The translations under genes were made by a program, and so were the position numbers. Of a stretch of 53,623 nt of DNA, positions 8,706-48,061 are shown piece after piece; the first letter of the stretch is position 1; each line of letters begins with the position of its first letter. The notes under the pieces are model-generated. The model saw nothing but the letters and a program-made list of their open reading frames with translations. It had not been told where the DNA came from and ran no database searches. Source of the stretch: a virus; the IMG/VR virus record IMGVR_UViG_3300042691_014963, positions 1 to 53,623 of that record; one strand, written 5' to 3'.

Positions 8706-9473
8706 ATGAAAAGTTACAACATACCAAATTATATCAGGTATAAAGAAGATATTAAACAAACTAATAAAGATAGTGAATCAATTGATTTTAAATCATACCC
8801 AAGGGATAAACTAATCGCTAGATTTTTACCATTAGTTGAGAACATTGCAAAGAAGTTTTCTACAACTACGCAAGCATGCGGTGTATTAGATATTACAGAT
8901 CTTATTCAATACGGATCTATTGGTTTAGTGCAGGCAATTGACAAAATTGAATGGGACACAATTAGGGACAGTGATAACCAAGAAAGTACATTAAAATCAT
9001 TTTTATCTAAAAGAATTAAAGGTTCAATTAGAAGAGCAATTGATATTAATAGAGGTTCAATTAAAATTCCTGAATATAAATTATTAGAAATTAGAAAGAA
9101 TAGTGCAAATGATCAAAAGTTAGTTGCAATGTTTTTTAATTCAATATTTTTAAGTATTGATGAACAAATGAATAATGATAATGAAGATTTGTTTGAAGCA
9201 TATCAAATACCAGATCAGCATGAATTTTATAATATAGAATTAATGAATATCTATTTAACAAGTTTATTAAAGAAGCATCTTGATGACCGGGAGTTTGAAG
9301 TATTACGATTAAGTTACGGATTAGATTGTGATAAACATTCCGCAAATGATATTGCAGATAAGTTAGGAATCGAGGGACCGAGCGCTTATGTTAGAATTTC
9401 AGAGATAAAAAAGCAAGCGATTAACAAGTTAATTGATAATGTAGATTCCTCACAAGTCCTTGATTACCTATAA
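8706..9473 (+). CDS. Sigma-70 family RNA polymerase sigma factor
   Basis: 255 residues. Region 2 is visible at about residues 33-110: FLPLVENIAKKFS, then DLIQYGSIGLVQAIDK and an FLSKRIKGSIRRAI helix. Region 4 lies at about 190-245: LDDREFEVLRLSYGL, then a helix-turn-helix around SANDIADKLGIEGPSAYVR. Regions 1 and 3 are short or absent. It would redirect host RNA polymerase to phage promoters. Because the conserved elements in this arm share a rigid architecture, they or a late promoter set outside the window are candidate targets; that link is inference. Confidence 0.85.
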   Translation: MKSYNIPNYIRYKEDIKQTNKDSESIDFKSYPRDKLIARFLPLVENIAKKFSTTTQACGVLDITDLIQYGSIGLVQAIDKIEWDTIRDSDNQESTLKSFLSKRIKGSIRRAIDINRGSIKIPEYKLLEIRKNSANDQKLVAMFFNSIFLSIDEQMNNDNEDLFEAYQIPDQHEFYNIELMNIYLTSLLKKHLDDREFEVLRLSYGLDCDKHSANDIADKLGIEGPSAYVRISEIKKQAINKLIDNVDSSQVLDYL

Positions 9474-19365: not shown

Positions 19366-22300
19366 TTAATATTTATTCATTGCTTGTCTTCTTTTTATTT
19401 CAGCAATTCTATTTGCTCTTCTTTTTAAAGCGGCTTCTTGCTTTAATTTTATTCTTTCTTCTGTAGGTAAAGCCATAATAGAATCTTTAGTACGTTTTCT
19501 AGTTTCTTTCGCTTTGATTTTACCTTCTATGACTCTTTTTTCTTTAGCTTTAGCTATTATTTCTTCATCTCCTTTTGTTTCTTCTATACCAACAGAATAT
19601 GGAGTAAATCCTATACCAACTGCAATTCTTTGCCAAGCTTGATTTTGTGAATTTAATGCCTGTGATACGTTTTCAATTTTATTTACTAAGCGATCCATAG
19701 GTAAATTTGTACCGGCTTCAACAAATTTTCCAGTTACCCCATACATAGGGCCTAAGTGAACTCTGCCATCTTGCATTACGCCCCATCCTCTTTCATCTAT
19801 AAGATCTTTTTCAAATTTAGTCTGTTGAAGACCAGTGTATACCTTTCTAAGTTTAGATCCAATAGGAGGCGAGATATTGGCACCTTCTAACATTACTTTT
19901 GCATAATCAGCTTTAAAGTCTTTATCTTTTTCATCTAAATACTTACTAGTCATATTTTTTAAGGTAGCTACGATACCACCTAAAAATCCTGTTCCTCTTA
20001 ATATAGTATCTAAAATTCCATTAACAACACTTATTACTTTATCATCAGTTGTTTTCTTTTTTGCCTTTGCTTTTTCAGGATCTAATTCTTTGTCATCATC
20101 ATCAAAAGCAACAGCGAATAAACCTTGTTGCAAAGCCGCAAATAAAGCATTTTGTATTGCTAAATAATAGGTTATTTTTGCAACATGAGTTTTAGCATCT
20201 CCCCTACCGTTTTTAAGATCTAAAAATGATTTTTTAATTGTTCGAGATTGTTGCATTGCAGTATTTTGGAATGTTAATAATAATCTTCCTGCACCGCTTG
20301 CTTGTTGTTTTGATATATCTCTTGGATCTCCTGATTGTTGGGTTTCGTCAGAAACTTTAGTAAAATCATTCCACGCATTAGCTTCGGCTTCCGCCTGCGT
20401 TTGTCCTTCTTTTAAATAAGTCTTAATTCTATTTCTGTAAAATGGAGCACCTCCTGAAGCAATAGCAAAACTATCGGCTAATTGCGTCGGTGTATAACCT
20501 ATTTTTAATAAATAAGAAACAACTGCATTTACTTTATTTTTACTACCAGCAGCAGCATTAGCTATTTCAGCAGCAGCTACATCTTCTTTTAAACCGCCAC
20601 GTCTTTCTTTCATTTTATCTGAATTCCAAATACGCGCAAAATCTTCCCAATATTGCTTTTGATTTGCAAATGCTTTTGCAGCAGCAATAGGATTATTATC
20701 TCTTAAATTTAAAAAGTTTATAGATCCAATTAATTGTAATGCGGCAGATCTTGTATTTAAGAACATTATAGTTCCAGTAGACCCATTAACCCAATTACTC
20801 CAACGAGTTGTTTCTTTATCTGCGCCAAAGCTTCTATTTTTTCCAGTAATCATTCTATATAATGAATCCTCAATAGCTTCTCTTACATTTGTACCATATA
20901 CTGCTTCAACTTTATTAATATTAGGACCTACAAGTTTTCCGTTTTCAAATTTGCCAAAGATTGTTTCTGCATTGTCAATAAACTCAGTAAGGAATTTTTT
21001 ACGACCTTCACCTTCTGTTAAATTATGCAAATCAGATATAATTGTACTTGAGTCCCAATATTCAGTAGGAGTTACCCAACCTTTACCTTGTCTACCTGTA
21101 ACTATTAGTCCTTGTTTAAAAGCATTCAATTCAGGATTATTATTTACAAGATCAGTTAATTTTCTTTGATCTCTTTGGGATATACCAGGTATTTCAACAC
21201 CTTCTTCCACCCACATTGCAACTCGTATTGCTTGATCATATGTAAAGTCTCCATCTGGAGTTAATTTTTCTAATTCCTTTTTAATATTAGGAAATTGATC
21301 AGTTAGTTTTTTATAATCTTTTTTAATTGACTGTCTTGCAGCATCCATCAAATCATTTCCATTCGCATATGGCTTTAACAAAGTATCACTAAAAAATTTT
21401 TTTTGAGCTTCGCCTTCTGCTCCTTTACCCATAAAATTATATAATAATAATTCGAAGTCGGCTGCAGATGGCGGTACATAAATATCAAATTTGTTTTTCC
21501 CAACGCCTCTTCTTCTTGCAACAATATCAGAAAATATTTTATAGCTTTCCACGCCTTTATTTTTTTCAATTATATTATTGAAATCTTCAGACATAGTTTT
21601 ACTATATTTTAATTTTGCTTGCTGTATTTTTGATTTGACGTCAAGTACATCTAATGCATTTTTAACAGCGGTAATATTTTGTATTGCATCATCTGTAAAA
21701 TAAAAATCGTTATAACCTTCCGACGCTTTACTAACTATCCAATCCGCTTTTGCTTGTGCAGAACTGTTCCCTAATCCGGTAATATTTTCTATTGGAATAT
21801 CTAATCCCATAGAATCTAAAAATTCTTTTATAGGTCCTGCAGAATTAGCAGGTCTTGCGGTTAAAATATGAATATCTTTTGTACCGTATTTTTTTGCAAG
21901 CTTAAGAACTTTATCTAACATAGGACCAGGTGTTGCATCAACCACTTTACTAAATTCAGAAAAATCAAATGTTGCGCCTTCGTTTAATAATTGCGCACCA
22001 TTTTTTGCAAATTCTTCAGCATTTAATTTTCCAGTTGTTCCGTCTGCTTTTGTGTATAGCACACTTCCTTTTGTAAATGCTAATGTATCATCAAAATCTA
22101 CAACTGAAATTCCTTTACGAGTTTTAGAATAATCAACATTAGCAGCATTCTCAATAGCTTTAGTTGTTTGTTGTGAAATACGTCTTTCTTTTGCTCCGGG
22201 AGCTTCTTTGGCTAAAGCATCGAAATTAGCTTCAGAACCATACATATTTTCTAAATTGCGTAAAGATTTTCTAAATGGTAATAAAGCTTCAATAAATTCC

Positions 22301-25300
22301 AAGTTTTCATTACGCATTTTTCCATTGCCAGAATATTTTAACCCAGCATCAGTTAAAGCTTGGTCTGCTTTTATAGGGATAAGGTTAATTTTTAATGATT
22401 CTATATATGCTTTAAGATCTTCATTTGTTATATTTTTATCTTTTAAGTAATCTTCAAGATATTTTTTTGTATCATTAATAGTTGTATTATGCTCTAATAT
22501 TACTTCTTTAGATTTTAATCCACTAACATAAAATCCCATTTTGTACATTTTTCTTAAAGCACCCTGCATATCTGTACCAAGAAGATTAATGTGATTTAAA
22601 CCACCGGCAATATCTCCTTTATTTTTATAATAAGATAATGTATTAATAACATGGTCTCCTGCTAAAGTAGCTTCTCCATTAATTACATTAATTGTTTCTT
22701 TGCTAATTTCATTGTTTTTAGAAAGAGAAGACTTTATTTCCGTAATTGGCAAATAAGATCTAATATCCTTGCCATTAATTCTTATATAAGTTCTAAGTTG
22801 GCCATTAACTTTTTTTTGCCCTATTTCAAAAACTTTGTTAACAAATAATTCTTTAGCTTTAGCTTCACCTAATACTCTTGTTAGAGCCGGTTGTAATACA
22901 TTAATTAAATAATCTCTATTTGTAGTTATAAAATTACCACTATTAGTTTTATAAGATTTTAATTCTGCACGTAAAAATGTTTCTATACCCGCGGTAAGTT
23001 CTGCATCAGTACTATTTTTTAATTCAGTAATAACTCTTTCTAAAGACTCTTCATGGGCAATTGATCCAAGTCTACTGGCTTGAGAACCTAATTTCTTTTT
23101 GCCGGCAGCTTCAATTTGATTTATATGGTATATTAAACTTGTAACAATAGGGGAGTCTGGATTAAAATCTTTTTTTCTTTTGTCATAGCCTAAATATTCT
23201 TTTACTAATTTATATTCTTCTGGCTTTAATTTATTTTGCCACTCAAAAAGACCCTCCATTGCTTTTTCTATAGCAGGAGCCTTATTCCCAATAGCATATT
23301 TAACATTACCCATTTCAGCTTGCCTAATAACTTCAATGGCAAAATTATTAGCAATTTCAGCCCCTTGTCTCTCTTGATTAGCTTTTAATGTTTCAGCTAA
23401 TGGACCATTGGTTTCAAGGTCTTTTATTATTAGGTTTAATCCTATATCTTTTGCAATATTTACTGCTAAGGATTCTTTAGCTCCTCTTCTTGGATTACCA
23501 TCAGGGCCAATAATTGTTGCTAAAAAGTCTGCATCAGAAATTACCTGCCATGCATTTGGCACCCTTCTAACAAGCTCATGACCGGAGGTTCTACCCGCAT
23601 TGTCAGTATTAACAGATTCTCTATCTATTTTTTCAGGAACCCATTCTGGATAATTTAACCATTTACCATTAACTCTTTTTTGAATAGCAATTGGCATTCC
23701 ACCTAATACTTCTTTACCTGTATTTTTACCCATTAAATAGGTGGTGGTCATGTTTTCTAATACATATCTTTTATGTTTTAATAGCCAATTTACCAATTCG
23801 CCATCTTTTTTACCGCCCATTTCTTTTTTTATAATAACATCTAGTTCTTTACCAATAGCATTATTAATTTCAGAAATTAAAGGTGTTACAGTGCGATTTA
23901 ATGTTACAGGAGCATCAATTCTAGTTTTTAGCGTCCTAATATGAGGCATCATCTTATCTGACATTTCTTTTTCCACCTCTGGACTAAAAACTTTTGCTTC
24001 TAATACATTCTTATATTTTGGTTTTTCTTTTGTCTCTGTTGGGACTTCTTCAGTTATTAAACCTTTCTCTAATTCTACATCTTTTTTAATCCCACCTTTG
24101 GTAGCGCCTTCAATACCTAATTCGGCGGCTAAAGCATTAGCTCTAAGATTTAAACGAGAACTGATAAATTTATCCAATGATTGTTTAGATGGATCAAATT
24201 CATTATTAATTAATAACGATGCACTTTGTAATAATGCCTCTTTGTATTCATCTCTGGTTACTCCTCGTTTAGCATCCGGAGTAATAGGATCATACAATCT
24301 TCTTGTTATAGTTTCAACTGTTCCGCCAAGTTCTTTACCTATTACAGATTTTGTAAAATCATTAGTAGGCGCTCCACTTGGTGTATAACTTAATCCCTCT
24401 GAAGCTAACCTTTTAGGATCCCCATTATATTTAGTATCTAATAAATTTTGAAGATTAGTTTTACTTTTAACTTCCCTTTCCTCAGACGGTTCTTTTTTAA
24501 TTGCAGGCTTGCTTTCTGGTGTAATACCGGATTTTTCAGCAATTTCTGCTCTTTTAATTTTAGTTTCTAAATTAATAAGTTGTTGATCATAATCTTGTGG
24601 ATCATAATCAAATTCATTCTCTTTAAGTTCTTTAAGTTCTAATTTAAGTTCCGCTGCAGTTTTTGCATAAGGAGTTTTACCTGAAGGAGTTCCTGTAGAT
24701 GGATATTTTTTTGCAAATTCAATTGCAGATTCGCTTGCTTGCCCAGTTTTTGCCTTTTCAGCAATACTTTTAAGCATATCATACATTTCTTTTGCGCCTT
24801 CTTTACCAGGCAAAAATTTTGCTTTTGGAAAACCTAATATACTTAAAATATTTTCAATTGGTTTTTTTAGCTTAGCGAATGATTCTGATCTATAAGATAA
24901 TTCTCCTGTTCTTACTGCTTCAACAAATGCAGTTATATATTCTTCATAATATTTTTTCTTATCAGCCTCAACTACTTCACCTTTTTCATTAACTTCATAT
25001 TTATAAAAGCTATTTATACGATCATCAATAATTTTTCTTTCTTTAGGAGCTAATTCGTTTTTCCAATCATCAATAAATTTTATACCTTCCGGTGTTATAT
25101 CTCCATTTTCATCCTTCATCCAACCCTCAAAAAAGTCATGTGTTATTTCATGCGATCCTGTACCAACCGCTCTTGTTCTTTCAACACGATCCTTATTAAT
25201 ATATCGCTTTTTTCCATCTACAAATGCATTTGCATTTTCAGGGGCTTCAAATCCCTTAAGTTTTAAATGAGCTTTTTTAAATTCTTCTTCGGTTAGTAAT

Positions 25301-28278
25301 TCACTTTTTTCTTTGCCAATAGCTTTTGCATTTGCATCAGCAGCTTCTATATCTAACTCAAAATCTCTAGTGGCTTTTATTTTAGTTATTTCTAATAATT
25401 CTTTTGTTCTAGCATTATTTTTTTCAACTTTTTCAACACGCTCATTTATTTTTGGCCTATTAAATGGTTCTAATGCAGGATTTTCTTTAATACCAGTTTC
25501 CAATGTTTCTATTTCATGGCGTAATTCCTGATTATTTGCAAGGTTGCTTAATAATTCTTTTCTTTCAGGAGTATCACCAACTATGCCATTACTATCTAAT
25601 ATTTTACTATATTCTAAAGCATTATTTTGGTAATATTTTAGATTTTTATATAATGGACTTTTAGTATCTAAACCGTATTGGTTTTTAAGCATAGACATTG
25701 GAGTATCGGATAATACCTGGTAATCAGCTCCACTTAATTTTTCACCATATTTTATTTTATTTATAATAACAAATAAACGTGAAGAATCCGGTCCAATAAG
25801 TCCTGCTTTTATATTTGCTTTAGCATTTTGTATTTCTAAATCACCTCTTAATACATTAGCTGCTGTTTTTATAGCAACTTCCTCTCTAGCCATTGCTTCA
25901 AAATCAACAGTATCTTTGTTTTTTATATTTAATTTTTCTAATGCAGCTTGTTCTGCAGCGTCAATTTCAGCTTCTCTTGTATTTAAAGCTTCATTGGTTT
26001 CACCTATTTTATGATCAATACCTAATAATTTTCCAGCCTTAACAGATTCACTATCAAATATTGGCAACTTCATTACATCAGCTTTTAAAGCATCTGTAAA
26101 TTGTTTAGGTGCACTTAATCCTAATAAACCTAAAGTTGCTAAAGTAGAAGCAATATGATTTTTTGTTGTTAAAGTGTTATAAACTTCAGCAAGATTTGCA
26201 TTACCTGTTTTTATTAAGTTTTCTTTTACCATATCAGCGCCTTCAGCAACAAGCATAACAGCACTCCCTGTGGTAGTTCCAACAGCATATCTACCAGCAG
26301 CACTGGCTATTTTTGATTTATATAACGTTTCTAAAACCGGACTGGTTATTTTTGATTTAGATAACACTTCTAAAACCGGTGTAAGTATTGGAATTCCATT
26401 AATTAATGCGGCTTTTATCATTTTTTCTGTTACAACGTTACCAGCTCCTAATGCCGCTGCAAATGTAGGGCTAGTAGCCGGTGCTCCTGTTGTAGCATCA
26501 AGTATTTCATCAGCCATATTCATAAGAGTAACCTCTTTCATTCCGCCAACAAATATATCTGCCGCAGTTTTTATAGCTTTTGTATTACCAAAAGTTTTTG
26601 ATATAAGATCTTTTGTTAATGTCCCAACCGCTTGTACTTGAGGGCCTGTTAATTTTCTTGTTACAAATAAAGCTCCTATTAAAGGAGTTATATTTGCTGC
26701 AGATTTCACCCCCGCTTCGCCCCAAGTCTCTGTAAGTTTATTTTCAAGTACTTGTTTATCGTCATATTTAAATCCAATACTCCCCATAACCTCATTAAAA
26801 GCGTTTGCCGCTTCCAACCTATTTACACGAGAAATGTCTTGGCCAGAGCTATAAGGCGATACATTAGTTATTGCTTTAAGAGTTTCAGAAGCATAATCCA
26901 TTAATTTACTATTCCTTTTAGTAGTAATAGGATCATAATTCAATTCCATTGCTTTTGTTAAAACTAAATATTGTTCTAATTTTTTATTAAATGCAATTGC
27001 TAATGGATGTTTACCAGGTAATTGACCAATGTTTTTAGGAAGCTTACCTGTTTTTACAACTTCTTCTAAATTTTTAATATCTGCATCAAAACCAGTTTGT
27101 GATCCTAGATAAGGACCACCAACACTTTTTACAAATGTACCAAGTTTTTCAATATTAGTTTCTGCATTATATATATTGTTTTGCTTTTTTAAAGCGGCAT
27201 TTGCCAATGCTAATAACTCATAATAAGTTTTAGCCTGTGCTGTTTCTAAAGTTGAGTCTGTATTTTTATCAGCTAAACTTTTTGCTTTTTCAGAAATCTC
27301 TTTCTTTTTAGTATTTATTTCACTTAAGGTTAATAATTTACCAGTAGCTTCATCATATAATTTACCACCAATGTTTAAATCCTCTCTTAGTGTATTAATT
27401 TCTTTTTCTAATCTTTTTACTTCAGATTGGTTATTACTTTTTTTAGCCGCTAATAATAAATCATTTTTTTCTTGTAATTCTTTTTCATCAGTTGTTAAAA
27501 ATAATTTACCATTTTCTGTAGCTTTATTTATAGGATTAATCCCATTTTTTATATCAACCTCTTTAAATTTTAAACCGTTGCTTTTAATCCAATTATTTTG
27601 CATGTCAGGCAAAGATTTAATAATTAGATCTCCATCTGGGATTTTCATATAATCAGGTTTTGGCATTTCATTTGGGACAGTTATCATTGGAATTATACTT
27701 CCAGCTCCTGGAGTTGTGATTCCATTAATAAATGTTGCAAATTCAGGATTATTTAATTCCTCTTCAGTTACCCATATATTATCGCCAAGTTTTTGTTCAT
27801 ATATAGGTAATTTTTTAGCAATTTGTTCTTGCTTTATTTGGTCAGCTTTTGCTAAAGCGTCTGTAGCAATAGCGGTATATTTTTGTTTTTCTTCTTTAAC
27901 AATCTCTTGTGCTAATCCGCGTCCTCTTTCTTCATTGCTTAATCTACTAATCTCTTTTGTAATATCTGGTAAACGTTCTGAAACAACAGGTTTAAAAGGC
28001 GTTTTAGCAAAGTCTATTACTGGTTTAACAGATGAAACCGAAGAAACTTTTGCCGATTTGGATGCCGTACTTTTTGCTGCTACAGGCGCACCCTTCTTTG
28101 CAGCAGCTTTTTTCTTTTTTGGATCTTCCTCATCTGCAATAATATTTAATTCTTCGCTTTCTTTTTTTAATTCATTTCTATTAATAATGTCGTCAAGCGT
28201 TGTATTTTGCTCAGAAGCAAATTGAACAAGCTCTTCTTCATCATAAATATCTCCTAAATCATTAATGTATTTTGCCAT
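19366..28278 (-). CDS. Giant polyvalent virion protein (2970 aa), gp16-like position
   Basis: The largest gene, one sixth of the window. Visible parts: a low-complexity Lys/Ala/Ser stretch (~residues 50-85); hydrophobic segments near 520-720; a zincin motif HEITH (H1043, E1044, H1047) with acidic EEYITAFVEAV downstream; a HAD-like motif DFDDT (D2061, D2063), an ILTARP strand and FTDDA; and an Ala-rich hydrophobic helix near 2700-2725 followed by DDDDKE. The C-terminal third (FADSFAIASGG-like and LLLTFQNTAMQQS) resembles the end of other phage giant proteins. Last gene of the late operon, after three proteins matching T7 gp13-15 order, so it is probably an ejected internal protein that also delivers enzymes. 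Functions of the domains are inferred. Confidence 0.75.
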   Translation of the reverse strand: MAKYINDLGDIYDEEELVQFASEQNTTLDDIINRNELKKESEELNIIADEEDPKKKKAAAKKGAPVAAKSTASKSAKVSSVSSVKPVIDFAKTPFKPVVSERLPDITKEISRLSNEERGRGLAQEIVKEEKQKYTAIATDALAKADQIKQEQIAKKLPIYEQKLGDNIWVTEEELNNPEFATFINGITTPGAGSIIPMITVPNEMPKPDYMKIPDGDLIIKSLPDMQNNWIKSNGLKFKEVDIKNGINPINKATENGKLFLTTDEKELQEKNDLLLAAKKSNNQSEVKRLEKEINTLREDLNIGGKLYDEATGKLLTLSEINTKKKEISEKAKSLADKNTDSTLETAQAKTYYELLALANAALKKQNNIYNAETNIEKLGTFVKSVGGPYLGSQTGFDADIKNLEEVVKTGKLPKNIGQLPGKHPLAIAFNKKLEQYLVLTKAMELNYDPITTKRNSKLMDYASETLKAITNVSPYSSGQDISRVNRLEAANAFNEVMGSIGFKYDDKQVLENKLTETWGEAGVKSAANITPLIGALFVTRKLTGPQVQAVGTLTKDLISKTFGNTKAIKTAADIFVGGMKEVTLMNMADEILDATTGAPATSPTFAAALGAGNVVTEKMIKAALINGIPILTPVLEVLSKSKITSPVLETLYKSKIASAAGRYAVGTTTGSAVMLVAEGADMVKENLIKTGNANLAEVYNTLTTKNHIASTLATLGLLGLSAPKQFTDALKADVMKLPIFDSESVKAGKLLGIDHKIGETNEALNTREAEIDAAEQAALEKLNIKNKDTVDFEAMAREEVAIKTAANVLRGDLEIQNAKANIKAGLIGPDSSRLFVIINKIKYGEKLSGADYQVLSDTPMSMLKNQYGLDTKSPLYKNLKYYQNNALEYSKILDSNGIVGDTPERKELLSNLANNQELRHEIETLETGIKENPALEPFNRPKINERVEKVEKNNARTKELLEITKIKATRDFELDIEAADANAKAIGKEKSELLTEEEFKKAHLKLKGFEAPENANAFVDGKKRYINKDRVERTRAVGTGSHEITHDFFEGWMKDENGDITPEGIKFIDDWKNELAPKERKIIDDRINSFYKYEVNEKGEVVEADKKKYYEEYITAFVEAVRTGELSYRSESFAKLKKPIENILSILGFPKAKFLPGKEGAKEMYDMLKSIAEKAKTGQASESAIEFAKKYPSTGTPSGKTPYAKTAAELKLELKELKENEFDYDPQDYDQQLINLETKIKRAEIAEKSGITPESKPAIKKEPSEEREVKSKTNLQNLLDTKYNGDPKRLASEGLSYTPSGAPTNDFTKSVIGKELGGTVETITRRLYDPITPDAKRGVTRDEYKEALLQSASLLINNEFDPSKQSLDKFISSRLNLRANALAAELGIEGATKGGIKKDVELEKGLITEEVPTETKEKPKYKNVLEAKVFSPEVEKEMSDKMMPHIRTLKTRIDAPVTLNRTVTPLISEINNAIGKELDVIIKKEMGGKKDGELVNWLLKHKRYVLENMTTTYLMGKNTGKEVLGGMPIAIQKRVNGKWLNYPEWVPEKIDRESVNTDNAGRTSGHELVRRVPNAWQVISDADFLATIIGPDGNPRRGAKESLAVNIAKDIGLNLIIKDLETNGPLAETLKANQERQGAEIANNFAIEVIRQAEMGNVKYAIGNKAPAIEKAMEGLFEWQNKLKPEEYKLVKEYLGYDKRKKDFNPDSPIVTSLIYHINQIEAAGKKKLGSQASRLGSIAHEESLERVITELKNSTDAELTAGIETFLRAELKSYKTNSGNFITTNRDYLINVLQPALTRVLGEAKAKELFVNKVFEIGQKKVNGQLRTYIRINGKDIRSYLPITEIKSSLSKNNEISKETINVINGEATLAGDHVINTLSYYKNKGDIAGGLNHINLLGTDMQGALRKMYKMGFYVSGLKSKEVILEHNTTINDTKKYLEDYLKDKNITNEDLKAYIESLKINLIPIKADQALTDAGLKYSGNGKMRNENLEFIEALLPFRKSLRNLENMYGSEANFDALAKEAPGAKERRISQQTTKAIENAANVDYSKTRKGISVVDFDDTLAFTKGSVLYTKADGTTGKLNAEEFAKNGAQLLNEGATFDFSEFSKVVDATPGPMLDKVLKLAKKYGTKDIHILTARPANSAGPIKEFLDSMGLDIPIENITGLGNSSAQAKADWIVSKASEGYNDFYFTDDAIQNITAVKNALDVLDVKSKIQQAKLKYSKTMSEDFNNIIEKNKGVESYKIFSDIVARRRGVGKNKFDIYVPPSAADFELLLYNFMGKGAEGEAQKKFFSDTLLKPYANGNDLMDAARQSIKKDYKKLTDQFPNIKKELEKLTPDGDFTYDQAIRVAMWVEEGVEIPGISQRDQRKLTDLVNNNPELNAFKQGLIVTGRQGKGWVTPTEYWDSSTIISDLHNLTEGEGRKKFLTEFIDNAETIFGKFENGKLVGPNINKVEAVYGTNVREAIEDSLYRMITGKNRSFGADKETTRWSNWVNGSTGTIMFLNTRSAALQLIGSINFLNLRDNNPIAAAKAFANQKQYWEDFARIWNSDKMKERRGGLKEDVAAAEIANAAAGSKNKVNAVVSYLLKIGYTPTQLADSFAIASGGAPFYRNRIKTYLKEGQTQAEAEANAWNDFTKVSDETQQSGDPRDISKQQASGAGRLLLTFQNTAMQQSRTIKKSFLDLKNGRGDAKTHVAKITYYLAIQNALFAALQQGLFAVAFDDDDKELDPEKAKAKKKTTDDKVISVVNGILDTILRGTGFLGGIVATLKNMTSKYLDEKDKDFKADYAKVMLEGANISPPIGSKLRKVYTGLQQTKFEKDLIDERGWGVMQDGRVHLGPMYGVTGKFVEAGTNLPMDRLVNKIENVSQALNSQNQAWQRIAVGIGFTPYSVGIEETKGDEEIIAKAKEKRVIEGKIKAKETRKRTKDSIMALPTEERIKLKQEAALKRRANRIAEIKRRQAMNKY
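26302..26379. repeat. 39-bp tandem duplication inside the giant gene
   Basis: Two adjacent 39-bp units, 26302-26340 and 26341-26379, differ at four positions. They encode two 13-residue units of the type (S/T)PVLE(T/V)LxKSKI. The in-frame duplication keeps the reading frame. Confidence 0.85.
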
Positions 28279-28294
28279 AAAATTTATTTAAATA

Positions 28295-29911
28295 TTATTT
28301 TAATTTTTTTCTACCAATTTTAGTAATATCAACAGTACCACCTATTGTATTTACCAAATCCTGTAAATCATCTCCTTTTGTATCTATCTTAACTTTTAAA
28401 CCAGATGAATCATATTTATATAAAGAGCCTTTTCCATTGGTAACTTTAAGATATAATCCATCTTTACCAGGTATTGCTTTACCGGATTTTATTCTTTCAA
28501 TTATAATATTATTAAATGCTTCTTGGTTTTTTTGATCCGCTGTAGGTTTATTTCTATCATCACCTCCTGGCTGTTCTGGCTTAGGAATAGTTACAATTGT
28601 TGATTTCTGAGTATAATATACTGGATCTCCAATTTTTAAAGCTCTTTTATTATCTACGTCTTCTTTAGTTGCCGGTCTGTTACTGTATTCTTTGCCAAGT
28701 TTATTTTCAACATCTATTTCAAATAATTTTTTGCTGAAAAACTCTTCTTGAGCCTGAGGCGTTGGATTAGCTTTGAAAAATTCTTCTAAAGTTTCATTCC
28801 CTCTGTATAACCTATTTTGTAAAAATGACTTTAATTGTGCAGGATTTCTTAAGTCTGAGTTAAGTAAAGCGCGAGCTCCAGTATCATAATACAGTTTTGC
28901 ACTATTAGATATAGCTGGCATATTCAAATAAATTGTTTCTATTTGTTTTTCTTTATTAGGAGCATCTTTAATTTTTTCTTTTGTTATAACAGGATTACCA
29001 GGATTTATTATAAAACTAGTTTTTAGTTCGTTAGTTTTACTATCCAAAATATCAGCTTGAGTTTTACCCCATATTTTATCAGAGTCTGGAGCTTCCGGAA
29101 CTTTATGGTAAAATGTACCGTCCCAATCACCTGCTTTTTTCTTAAGCTTAACGGAGTATTGCTTGGTAGCATCGTCATAAATAATACTGCTATTTTTGCC
29201 TTTTGCTATTTCCGCATTAAGTTCTTCATCAGAAAATTTTTCTAAATCTTTTTCTCTATTTACTTTTGTTATTATTTCAATTATTGGATTAGAAGGATCT
29301 CCTCCATCAAGATAAAGATCTTTAGTTACTCTATTTCTATAATTATAATTTTCAGGATCGCTAGCGTAATATGATATTTCATTAATTTTTTGATCCAATG
29401 GCGTATCTCCATTCCAATCTGTATTTAACCAATCTCTAGGCCCAAATAATTTACCCTCATCAATATTTTGTTTCATTCCAGCAAAAGTAGGAATTGTTTT
29501 ATCTTTAAATTGGTTTACGCTTTTAGAATATTTATCATTAGCAATAATTTCTTCAGGAGTTAAAACGCTAAATGAAGCTTTAACTGCATTTTCACCGTCT
29601 TTTTTTAATAAATCAGAATACAATTCACCAAATTTATTTACAAAAACCGAATCAGCATTTTTTACCTTATCAACAGCAGCATCTACCTCTTTCATATTGG
29701 CAGTTGATTGCTTAATGCTGGCTAATTGAGTAGCAATTTGTTTTTCTTCGGTTTGTTTTTTTAATTTTGCCTCATAAGCTCTTTCCTCCGCGGCAAGTGC
29801 TAATTGAGCATTCATTGCCTTAGCAAAATTTTCCCCAAAACTAGCTATACCTTGACCAAAGATCATTGCAGAATCATCTCTAATTATTGTAGGATTATCG
29901 TATGCACTCAT
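28295..29911 (-). CDS. Internal virion protein-like (538 aa), gp15-like position
   Basis: 538 residues, no transmembrane segment, an early coiled-coil region (residues ~30-90, ALAAEERAYEAKLKKQTEEK) and a charged, mostly soluble remainder with a Gly/Asp-rich linker near 450 (KPEQPGGDDRNKPTAD). No family recognised from the sequence. It lies between a gp14-like and a giant gp16-like gene, so it is probably an internal or ejected virion protein. Confidence 0.6.
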   Translation of the reverse strand: MSAYDNPTIIRDDSAMIFGQGIASFGENFAKAMNAQLALAAEERAYEAKLKKQTEEKQIATQLASIKQSTANMKEVDAAVDKVKNADSVFVNKFGELYSDLLKKDGENAVKASFSVLTPEEIIANDKYSKSVNQFKDKTIPTFAGMKQNIDEGKLFGPRDWLNTDWNGDTPLDQKINEISYYASDPENYNYRNRVTKDLYLDGGDPSNPIIEIITKVNREKDLEKFSDEELNAEIAKGKNSSIIYDDATKQYSVKLKKKAGDWDGTFYHKVPEAPDSDKIWGKTQADILDSKTNELKTSFIINPGNPVITKEKIKDAPNKEKQIETIYLNMPAISNSAKLYYDTGARALLNSDLRNPAQLKSFLQNRLYRGNETLEEFFKANPTPQAQEEFFSKKLFEIDVENKLGKEYSNRPATKEDVDNKRALKIGDPVYYTQKSTIVTIPKPEQPGGDDRNKPTADQKNQEAFNNIIIERIKSGKAIPGKDGLYLKVTNGKGSLYKYDSSGLKVKIDTKGDDLQDLVNTIGGTVDITKIGRKKLK

Positions 29912-29947: not shown

Positions 29948-30682
29948 CTACCAGTCTGCTTTTTTTGTACCAGCAAGAGTGCCTGCTATGCTCCCCACCG
30001 AAGAGAATGCGCCGCTCCACGCACTTGCTTGTGCCATATTTGCACTTGCAGCATTCTGCATTGCTTGTTGTTCTTGTCCAGCTGTATAACCTAAATCTTG
30101 ATTAGTTCTAGCTTCTTTAGCTTGAAACATAAATTGCTGTCCGGCTGCTAAATTTTGCTGTAATCTTTGGCCTTCAGAGATTTGTATATTTTGCAATCTT
30201 TGCTGCTCGGACATTTTAGCTTGATTCTTTTGAGCTTCTCCTTGAGCTCTTAACCTTTCGTTTTCAGCTTCTTGTTGCTCAATAGTTGATGCAACCCCTT
30301 TTTTACTTTGTAATGCAGCTTGCGCCAATGCGGTTGCTCCACCCGCACTTGCTCCAGTTTCACGTAAAGTGTCCAATGTATTTGCTAAAGCAATATCCGA
30401 TTGTTCCATTTGTATTTCCGCTGCTTGAGTGGCTACACCTAAATTTGCATAAGGATTTGTTATCATTCCAGACAAATCTTTTGCCATGCTACTTAAATCT
30501 TTATCATTAGCATAAGGATTAACAATAACCGCTCTATTGGCCTTTATGGCTGCCATTTCTTGTCTAGCTCTATCCGCATCATTACGTGCTCCCCTTGCTG
30601 CTTGTTTTGCCTGATTTGCTGAAATTGCGCCACCTAATAGAGATGCTCCTGCACCTATTGCTGCTGCTGTTACTACTCCCAT
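29948..30682 (-). CDS. Internal virion protein, T7 gp14-like (244 aa)
   Basis: 244 residues. The start GVVTAAAIGAGASLLGGAIS is a Gly/Ala-rich membrane-inserting segment; the middle is a long Gln/Ala/Glu-rich coiled coil (EQQEAENERLRAQGEAQKNQ); the end is again Ala/Gly-rich. This is the design of T7 gp14-type proteins, which enter the outer membrane during DNA ejection. It lies directly between the acetyltransferase-like and 538-residue genes. Confidence 0.75.
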   Translation of the reverse strand: MGVVTAAAIGAGASLLGGAISANQAKQAARGARNDADRARQEMAAIKANRAVIVNPYANDKDLSSMAKDLSGMITNPYANLGVATQAAEIQMEQSDIALANTLDTLRETGASAGGATALAQAALQSKKGVASTIEQQEAENERLRAQGEAQKNQAKMSEQQRLQNIQISEGQRLQQNLAAGQQFMFQAKEARTNQDLGYTAGQEQQAMQNAASANMAQASAWSGAFSSVGSIAGTLAGTKKADW

Positions 30683-30683
30683 A

Positions 30684-31091
30684 TTACATTATTTTTTTTG
30701 AAATTTCATACGATGGAGTTTCATCCACCATATATCCTAATTTTTTGTGTATATTTATTAAACTTTTATTTCTAGCAATACTAATTATTGTATTATAATC
30801 TTGTTGTTTTGCAACATTCTCTAACGATTTTATTAGCATTTCTAGCGCTTCTTTCCTATCTGATTCCCTGTATTGTGGATTAGAAACAATCCAATCCAAC
30901 CAAGCTACTTTAGAGTTTGATAAGTATAAAAATCCAGCCGCAACTGGAATGTCCCCTTTACAAACCATAACTCCGCCGCAACCATTCAATGGTAAAGTTT
31001 CTTTGCTAACCGCAGGCCATCTCCACCATTTCCACCAAGAAGACATATCTTCCCAGTCTGATTCTCTTAATGCTCTTACATTTAATTCCAT
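30684..31091 (-). CDS. GNAT acetyltransferase-like protein, gp13-like position
   Basis: 135 residues with GNAT features: VRALRESDWEDMSSWW at the start, CKGDIPVAAGFLYL strands, VAWLDWIVSNPQYR and the late NIHKKLGYMVDE motif. In T7-type phages a small GNAT-like protein (gp13) is encoded at the same relative position, before the ejection proteins. Size also fits (T7 gp13 is 138 aa). Catalytic activity is uncertain. Confidence 0.72.
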   Translation of the reverse strand: MELNVRALRESDWEDMSSWWKWWRWPAVSKETLPLNGCGGVMVCKGDIPVAAGFLYLSNSKVAWLDWIVSNPQYRESDRKEALEMLIKSLENVAKQQDYNTIISIARNKSLINIHKKLGYMVDETPSYEISKKIM

Positions 31092-47236: not shown

Positions 47237-47511
47237 TATTTGGATCTCCCTTCTGCAAAGCCTTTAAATGTTTTTGCTATTGGTTCTTTTTCGCTTTCTT
47301 CTAACATTTTTTCCTCTTCTTCAATCCGACTAAGAATTTCAAAAGCATCAAATATAGCTAGTTTTTTTGTTGCCGCCGCATTCTTTAATTTATCTGCTGC
47401 TAAATCATCATCCCCATTATCTAGAATAGCTTCTTCTGCAACTTTAATAAGCTCCAATACCGCTTTGTGACCAGCTTGGACTATATTCTTCTTCGTCTCC
47501 TTTATATTCAT
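47236..47511 (-). CDS. Small helical protein upstream of terL (91 aa)
   Basis: 91 residues, mainly helical with a clear charge pattern (GDDDLAADKLKNAAATKKLA, SRIEEEEKMLEESEKEP). Its stop overlaps the terL start by one base. A small terminase subunit is possible from position and helical design, but no HTH is evident. It overlaps the GroES-like gene by 68 bases. Confidence 0.6.
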   Translation of the reverse strand: MNIKETKKNIVQAGHKAVLELIKVAEEAILDNGDDDLAADKLKNAAATKKLAIFDAFEILSRIEEEEKMLEESEKEPIAKTFKGFAEGRSK

Positions 47512-48061
47512 ATTTAATTACAATATCATTAGATTTCATACAATATAATCGCTGGCCTTCTATTATAAATTCAAATTCGCCATTCGGCGTATATCCAACT
47601 AAGTCTCCAGGATTAATTTTAAGCGCTTTTAAAGCGTCATTTCCATATTTTAATATTCCAATAAGCTTACGCTCTTTATCGAGCTTTAAATGGTCTATAT
47701 TTTTTAATGGCTTAATAAAGCATCTGTCTCCAAATGATTTCCATTCACCGTCTGTTTTATATAAATATATTTGATCTAAATCACAAAAAAATTGATTATC
47801 CATAAAATAGGACCTACTATTTTTTTTATTTCCTTTAGTGTCATAAAATACTCTAAAAACATTATGATGTATAATAACAAAATCACCTTCTTTTATATCT
47901 GTTTTATAAGCTAATGGTGTTGAAACAACTTGTGCTAAATTATTAACAGATCTAAAACTTTCAATTTTAGTGTTTAATATTAAATTTTTACCTTCAATAT
48001 TTATTTCGTTATCATATCTTTCGCCTACTGGCTTTACAATAAAACTAAATACACTACGCAT
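47444..48061 (-). CDS. Double GroES-like protein (205 aa)
   Basis: 205 residues. The second half (RCFIKPLKNID... KINPGDLVGYTPNG, EFEFIIEGQRLYCMKSNDIV) follows the GroES strand order including the GD(R/L)V turn and the final MxxxDI strand. The first half has a similar turn (IKEGDFVIIHHNVFRVF) and a matching strand order, so the protein looks like two GroES domains in tandem. It could replace or complement a GroES ring for folding a phage protein such as the capsid. No mobile-loop sequence can be assigned by eye. Confidence 0.65.
   Translation of the reverse strand: MRSVFSFIVKPVGERYDNEINIEGKNLILNTKIESFRSVNNLAQVVSTPLAYKTDIKEGDFVIIHHNVFRVFYDTKGNKKNSRSYFMDNQFFCDLDQIYLYKTDGEWKSFGDRCFIKPLKNIDHLKLDKERKLIGILKYGNDALKALKINPGDLVGYTPNGEFEFIIEGQRLYCMKSNDIVIKYEYKGDEEEYSPSWSQSGIGAY

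Follow-up and report, generated by a model that had tools for sequence, protein, structure and literature searches.

The question raised by this locus is what a phage does with a very long protein encoded at the very end of its late genes. The window, that is, the whole stretch of DNA analyzed here, is a virus record of 53.6 kb with 31% G+C, and it carries on the minus strand, at 19366–28278, a single uninterrupted open reading frame of 2970 residues, the last gene of the late operon, whose product (hereafter the giant) contains no cysteine. It is known that proteins injected together with phage DNA act before the phage genes are expressed, and few of them have known enzymatic roles. The original prediction regarded the giant as a polyvalent protein that has zincin and HAD motifs and may be injected into the host to act early on host proteins and phosphorylated substrates. 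It had placed the frame exactly, as well as the motifs HEITH (residues 1043–1047) and DFDDT (residues 2061–2065), whose catalytic residues are conserved, and had correctly stated that T7 gp16 (1318 aa, 44% of the giant) is less than half as long. It did not mention the strand, the absence of cysteine, the putative sigma-2-like domain, the conserved polyvalent C-terminal domain, or the fact that in this family the HAD domain is dispensable and the zincin is not. The following paragraphs describe the evidence that leads us to consider it probable, as a whole, that the giant is an ejected pilot protein that combines a zincin acting as a protease with a HAD domain acting as a 3'-phosphatase.

The minus-strand operon runs from a GroES-like protein through TerL (PHROG match, E 1e-167) and the portal (E 3e-137) to several virion proteins; then come two proteins of 1352 aa and 610 aa, the latter tail-fibre-like, followed by the GNAT-like protein of 135 aa (30684–31091), the gp14-like one of 244 aa (29948–30682), a 538-aa protein (28295–29911) and finally the giant, so that its neighbors are as originally described. 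The GNAT-like protein (PHROG_17252 and PHROG_1249, acetyltransferase, E 2e-4) is homologous to elemo gp21 and phi38:1 gp98 (blastp E 1e-25 and 6e-7, respectively). The 244-aa protein is called gp14-like on the basis of its position and hydrophobic N-terminus, and it is the positional counterpart of elemo gp20, while the 538-aa protein occupies the position of T7 gp15 and phi18:3 gp121; both lack cysteine. The last three genes (gp14-like, gp15-like, giant) thus follow the order of the ejection triad of T7. The portal shares 41% identity with that of the Flavobacterium phages elemo and 27–35% with those of the Cellulophaga phages phi38:1 and phi18:3; a match in a spring metavirome reaches 51%. 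These relatives point to a host that is probably a member of the Bacteroidota. Other genes of the window deserve mention at this point. The GroES-like co-chaperonin (47444–48061, minus strand) adjoins the terminase; no GroEL was identified among the window ORFs scanned, and elemo and MW202828 encode both GroEL and GroES. A sigma-70-like factor is encoded as a separate gene at 8706–9473 on the plus strand (Pfam region 2, E 5e-6; PHROG_351, E 1e-22), and similar genes lie close to the giant in two related loci (L005 and L014).

The order TerL-portal-...-GNAT-gp14-like-gp15-like-giant is common to Flavobacterium phage elemo and phi38:1, and largely to phi18:3. The last slot is occupied in elemo by gp18 (3694 aa, annotated as a structural protein), in MW202828 by a 3859-aa protein, in phi38:1 by gp101 (1691 aa, also annotated as a structural protein) and in phi18:3 by gp123 (1935 aa), which according to its record was annotated from experimental MS/MS proteomics and is a virion protein. 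All four have almost no cysteine, and a hydrophobic helix with an acidic patch behind it lies 180–395 residues from the end in elemo gp18, phi18:3 gp123, the MW202828 protein and the giant of the window. The proteins of this slot are mosaic: elemo gp18 has a blastp segment in common with gp101 and gp123, neither of which contains HExxH. The link between the giant and the MS-detected gp123 is a chain through elemo gp18 (a shared zincin first, a blastp segment second) and not full-length homology.

The composition of the giant is the second line of evidence. It contains no cysteine in 2970 residues, where 30 would be expected from base composition (the probability of finding none at the rate of other phage proteins is 4e-10), and together with the 538-aa and 244-aa proteins it forms a group with 0 cysteines in 3752 residues, compared with 14 in 4545 for the other proteins of the virion module (Fisher P 2e-4) and 0.73% for all other window proteins examined. 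Across the family, 182,018 residues include 28 cysteines. The same absence is found in T7 gp15 and gp16 (L096), in N4 gp50, gp51 and gp52 (L097) and in crAss001 gp46 (L098, L099); crAss001 gp47, gp49 and gp50 have one to three cysteines each, and less clear cases are T7 gp14 (1 in 196) and crAss001 gp45 (2 in 842). For N4-type virion RNA polymerases the absence of cysteine has been explained by ejection, since disulphides would be an obstacle on the way through the tail (PMC3915230, PMC2784036). Cysteine exclusion is the strongest evidence offered here by the sequence in favor of an ejected giant, and because it extends across all domains it suggests that all parts of the protein pass through the tail; the near-total absence of cysteine in unrelated phages could prove to be a simple and general sequence marker of ejected cargo. 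From synteny and cysteine exclusion we conclude that the giant is, in all likelihood, an ejected polyvalent protein. A different view would be that it is a late protein foreign to the virion (a lysis or assembly factor, for example) that neighbors the ejection genes by accident, and it can be said in its defense that the virion reading was drawn only from position and composition; given the synteny with an MS-detected virion protein, the cysteine exclusion and the polyvalent fold described below, we regard it as very improbable.

A scan of IMG/VR revealed relatives of the giant encoded on 556 stretches, which makes the family common in viral metagenomes; a second scan with a divergent relative as query returned that relative alone. 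The alignment comprises 62 non-redundant full-length proteins (that of the window included) of 2211–3829 aa, mostly from metagenomic contigs. The whole protein had no match in Pfam, PHROGs, the PDB or an annotated phage collection, and the family, whose core is covered by neither Pfam nor PHROGs, is both uncharacterized and widespread. Conservation is distributed in blocks: residues 1020–1160 (zincin), 1320–1670, 2040–2220 (HAD) and, with the highest values, 2220–2900. The strongly variable regions are residues 1680–2030 and the N-terminal thousand residues (25279–28278), which evolve fast and differ in length among relatives; in this N-terminal part most 30-residue blocks show a column identity of about 0.1–0.3 and an occupancy of 0.3–0.8. 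Residues 1405–1670 (23269–24066) form a conserved domain (column identity mostly 0.4–0.54, occupancy mostly above 0.9) with a pLDDT over 90 across most of its length, in which the motifs TTTxLM, AIQK and GRTSG are recognizable and for which no known match was found. In two relatives (L013, 6680–15846; L045, 6713–14738) the gene consists of two overlapping frames split near the HAD region, and sequencing error, decay and frameshifting are the candidate explanations. In seven others (L015, L018, L019, L020, L022, L023 and L028) an additional module, some 150 residues long, lies behind the HAD domain or replaces it, and its pattern, GNAAEVFGIVINGV...EPSRIKLY, is perhaps that of a GNAT-like protein.

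The most conserved part of the giant, residues 2240–2900 (19579–21561), has a column identity of mostly 0.5–0.78, and in a Foldseek comparison with BFVD its model matches the C-terminal parts of polyvalent-type viral proteins, whose annotations read large polyvalent, ART-PolyVal or MuF-type (E 1e-13 to 1e-5, with TMq mostly 0.35–0.5). The AlphaFold2 models were built from the sequences of the window and of the loci only, with regions 1–1000 and 1680–2030 left out. Domain-wise structure prediction, which had been suggested as a check, gave zincin-like helices, a HAD domain nearest to Pnkp and this polyvalent-type C-terminal fold. The giant is therefore a large multidomain protein beside late virion genes (TerL, portal), with a zincin hub domain and a shared fold, as are the polyvalent proteins. 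A search with the families LPD3 and LPD38 gave no match, and since the control genomes were silent too, this silence is not evidence of absence. In N4, the C-terminal 1400 residues of the virion RNA polymerase are needed for encapsidation (PMC5512222), and by analogy the C-terminal domain of the giant is likely to be part of the packaging or ejectosome machinery. This region also contains the conserved hydrophobic helix (residues 2706–2724), followed by an acidic patch (DDDD; 20092–20163 for residues 2706–2729), a pattern kept in relatives, 60 of 62 of which have an acidic run within the last 300 aa. The hydrophobic helices of the original prediction are thus borne out by one conserved helix, and less so by strength, given that the highest 19-residue peaks are modest (1.58 at residue 621 and 1.36 at 2706).

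The zincin-like domain (residues 1013–1165; 24784–25242) was identified by conservation, hhalign and the AlphaFold2 model. Its HExxH motif, HEITH in the window (25138–25152), is invariant (H1043, E1044, H1047) in 55 of 55 aligned relatives, and E1113 (24940–24942), the proposed third zinc ligand, is kept in at least 90% of them. In the model of residues 1005–1680 the HExxH lies on one helix (H36-50) and E1113 on the following one (H103-119), as in zincins, and the domain is common to the family and elemo gp18 (hhalign probability 91, E 9e-7). The composition of the giant predicts 0.01 HExxH and 0.18 D-hydrophobic-D-x-T motifs by chance, and neither HEITH nor DFDDT can be attributed to chance because their catalytic residues are conserved across relatives. 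The domain is probably a catalytically active metalloprotease. It is retained in the relatives that have lost the HAD domain and is therefore a core part of the machine rather than a swappable effector, and a dispensable effector role is accordingly less likely than self-trimming or the cutting of a protein at the place of entry; the original prediction had the zincin acting on host proteins, and while the zincin stands, its target may equally be the giant itself. It could also be that the zincin cleaves while the virion is being assembled, within the particle or procapsid, and that the giant is processed before packaging, as has been proposed for DdrB of P1 (PMC5512222), and an invariant zincin would fit this proposal. 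The N4 virion RNA polymerase, however, is packaged uncleaved in spite of its zincin (PMC5512222), which also speaks against obligatory self-cleavage, and the exclusion of cysteine from all domains suggests that the whole giant passes through the tail; processing during virion maturation thus seems unlikely. On the subject of zincins, a HEAFH motif is present at residue 2157 of crAss001 gp47 (L099, 26120–33145), near the C-terminus of this virion RNAP-associated cargo protein, and it is possibly a further zincin in an ejected giant.

The HAD domain occupies residues 2050–2215 (21634–22131) and displays the four motifs of this superfamily in a Rossmannoid fold: DFDDT (motif I, 22084–22098), LTARP (motif II, residues 2139–2143, 21850–21864), K2177 (motif III, 21748–21750) and D2196-D2197 (motif IV, 21688–21693; D2196 is kept in at least 90% of relatives). 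Residues D2061, D2063, T2140, K2177 and D2197 show no variation among 54 relatives with 46–81% identity to the window protein. The possibility that DFDDT is a catalytic motif of the DxDxD type of RNA polymerases was rejected, because three further HAD motifs follow in order. The four motifs are intact in 59 of the 62 full-length relatives, degenerate in one (L016) and absent in two (L017 and L018), which marks the HAD domain as a module open to exchange and the zincin as part of the core. In L016 the motif context of the HAD region (from about 12560) has decayed to DIDER, VTIEP and GDKFKN, and the zincin is intact. Loss of the catalytic residues in all close relatives, an outcome named at the outset as fatal to the idea, is not what is seen, as nearly all keep them.

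The model of the HAD domain (pLDDT of about 85) has as its best VIA match the 3'-phosphatase of T4 Pnkp (5uj0; Z 10.7 over 120 residues, 2.5 Å), followed by the Pnkp1/Rnl/Hen1 complex (Z 10.2) and Nir2 (Z 9.1); the structural matches include phosphoserine phosphatase as well. The family profiles agree, with 32 of 54 members matching PHROG_415 "polynucleotide kinase" (best 1e-8; the window protein, E 5e-5) and 8 of 33 matching NCBIfam TIGR01664 "DNA 3'-phosphatase". Plain Foldseek against the PDB gave no match at E ≤ 0.001, profile searches of the PDB with both conserved blocks and the HAD block gave chance matches only, and the single-sequence hhalign comparison of the HAD family with T4 Pnkp is weak (probability 27, E 7e-4, motif I only), so that the link to Pnkp is carried by the fold and the family profiles. 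T4 Pnkp contains R176 and D254, which we take to be important residues, and at the level of sequence the family has no obvious conserved counterpart of either, so the substrate of the HAD domain may differ. With T4 Pnkp as the best match, nucleic-acid ends are likelier substrates than phosphoproteins, and the prediction is that the domain most likely dephosphorylates nucleic-acid 3' ends; the HAD motifs of the original prediction hold, and its phosphorylated substrates give way to nucleic-acid 3' ends as the first candidates. According to the T4 record, PseT acts together with RNA ligase to mend tRNA in restrictive prr hosts. The scan of the window genes, some small ORFs lying outside it, revealed neither a kinase nor a ligase as a partner, and repair would then need host enzymes.

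These results bear directly on the host takeover that was originally proposed, in which the zincin and the HAD domain are effectors that cut or dephosphorylate host proteins or metabolites when infection starts. The catalytic residues are indeed conserved, effector zincins in polyvalent proteins are allowed for by Iyer et al. (2017; PMC5512222), and HAD domains are versatile, with phosphoserine phosphatase among the structural matches of this one. Against this, both the structure and two profile libraries give polynucleotide phosphatases as the best matches, and a zincin that persists where the HAD domain is lost behaves as core machinery; we therefore find host takeover rather unlikely, and continue with the pilot protein that carries a protease and a 3'-phosphatase.

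Between the zincin and the conserved domain lies a helical region (residues 1274–1389; 24112–24459) for which a sigma-70 region-2-like fold is offered as a hypothesis, based on its predicted structure. Sigma factors fill all of its first 11 VIA rows, with the alignment at region 2 and Z 5.8–7.6; values of 6–7 are within the chance range for helical domains. Its local pattern, KYNPESGIPLAAYINKYLPVRAI (KY-x-P-xxxG-xx-LAAYI), resembles sigma region 2.2–2.3. In hhalign comparisons with a sigma profile the tiles over this region are the best of 24 (P about 0.012–0.014, at a probability of 3.5%), and in HMMER sigma searches the best segments of several relatives fall here too, at an insignificant E above 1. 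Neither hhalign nor HMMER thus gave a significant sequence-profile match to sigma-70 region 2, and no Pfam sigma match was found among the 25 best-represented families. If the resemblance is real, the region could hold the core of the host RNA polymerase at the incoming DNA, and the giant, like the N4 virion RNA polymerase or T7 gp16, would launch early transcription with a borrowed polymerase. T7 gp16 has been reported to recruit host RNA polymerase (PMC12633501), and such a role is compatible with the preferred explanation. In view of the scores just mentioned, and of the separate sigma factor gene that the window already has, this start-up of transcription is a tentative reading, less likely than not.

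Starting from the gene, motifs, conservation, synteny, cysteine exclusion and predicted folds computed here, the injection, catalysis, targets and order of events may be pictured as follows. Among the ejection (pilot) proteins of a short-tailed Bacteroidota phage the giant would be the largest, packed in the head together with the 244-aa and 538-aa proteins; it would thread the tail ahead of the DNA, partly unfolded and free of disulphides, and would land at the inner membrane and cytoplasm, in the slot of T7 gp16 or the N4 virion RNA polymerase. The conserved C-terminal domain would serve as the packaging or ejectosome module common to large polyvalent proteins, the zincin metalloprotease would most likely trim either the giant or some protein where entry takes place, and the HAD domain, if active as a polynucleotide 3'-phosphatase, would clean DNA or RNA 3' ends damaged by host defense at entry. 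The polyvalent, injected and early-acting character originally attributed to the protein thus gains support from synteny with an MS-detected virion protein, cysteine exclusion and the polyvalent C-terminal fold, and should be read as presumed on these grounds. If the HAD domain is of the Pnkp type, it would be an end-repair enzyme delivered by the virion and a direct counter to nuclease-based defense; a genuine sigma-like domain, for its part, would account for an immediate start of transcription in a phage that has no virion polymerase. The joint proposal, an infection starter in which one cysteine-free chain is at once a protease, a 3'-end phosphatase that repairs ends cut by host defense and a sigma-region-2 domain that captures the host RNA polymerase, borrowed in place of a virion polymerase, is rather doubtful as a whole.

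The class of ejected polyvalent proteins that contain zincins is already established (PMC5512222), and N4 gp50 is its best studied member (PMC12633501). Like the large polyvalent proteins surveyed by Iyer et al. (2017; PMC5512222), the giant has more than 2000 residues, several domains, a position beside virion genes, a zincin-like metallopeptidase and a comparable predicted C-terminal fold; it differs in that no LPD or other Pfam domain was detected in it, and in having a HAD/PNKP-like and possibly a sigma-2 domain. It resembles elemo gp18 (Elemovirus, NC_055854), phi18:3 gp123 and phi38:1 gp101 in its slot in the late operon, its size and its near lack of cysteine, and elemo gp18 also in its zincin, whereas all three lack the HAD domain and cannot be aligned with it overall. 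N4 gp50 has a similar size (about 3000–3500 aa), no cysteine, the last position of the ejection triad and a zincin followed by a helical C-terminal region, but it has no HAD domain, and its single-subunit T7-like RNA polymerase domain was not found in the giant, either as a Pfam match or by profile similarity to gp50. T7 gp16 (with gp14 and gp15) shares the position in the triad and, with gp15, the absence of cysteine; it has no HAD domain and no detectable sequence similarity to the giant. Comparison of the domains with crAss001 gp45, gp47, gp49 and gp50, N4 gp50 and T7 gp15 and gp16 showed nothing similar beyond a weak overlap with the HExxH of crAss001 gp47. Searches of the literature on ejection proteins turned up no description of a HAD or a sigma domain, though unpublished or subscription work may contain one, and the words "phosphatase" and "PNKP" are absent from the text of the 2017 survey (PMC5512222). 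As for T4 Pnkp (PseT), its core HAD residues (DxDxT, [S/T]xR, K, DD) correspond to those of the giant, whose HAD domain differs in lacking the kinase half and in being embedded in a giant that is presumably ejected. Set against these systems, what looks new is the core family outside Pfam and PHROGs, the fusion with a Pnkp-like HAD domain, the possible sigma-2 domain, and the combination of them in one protein.
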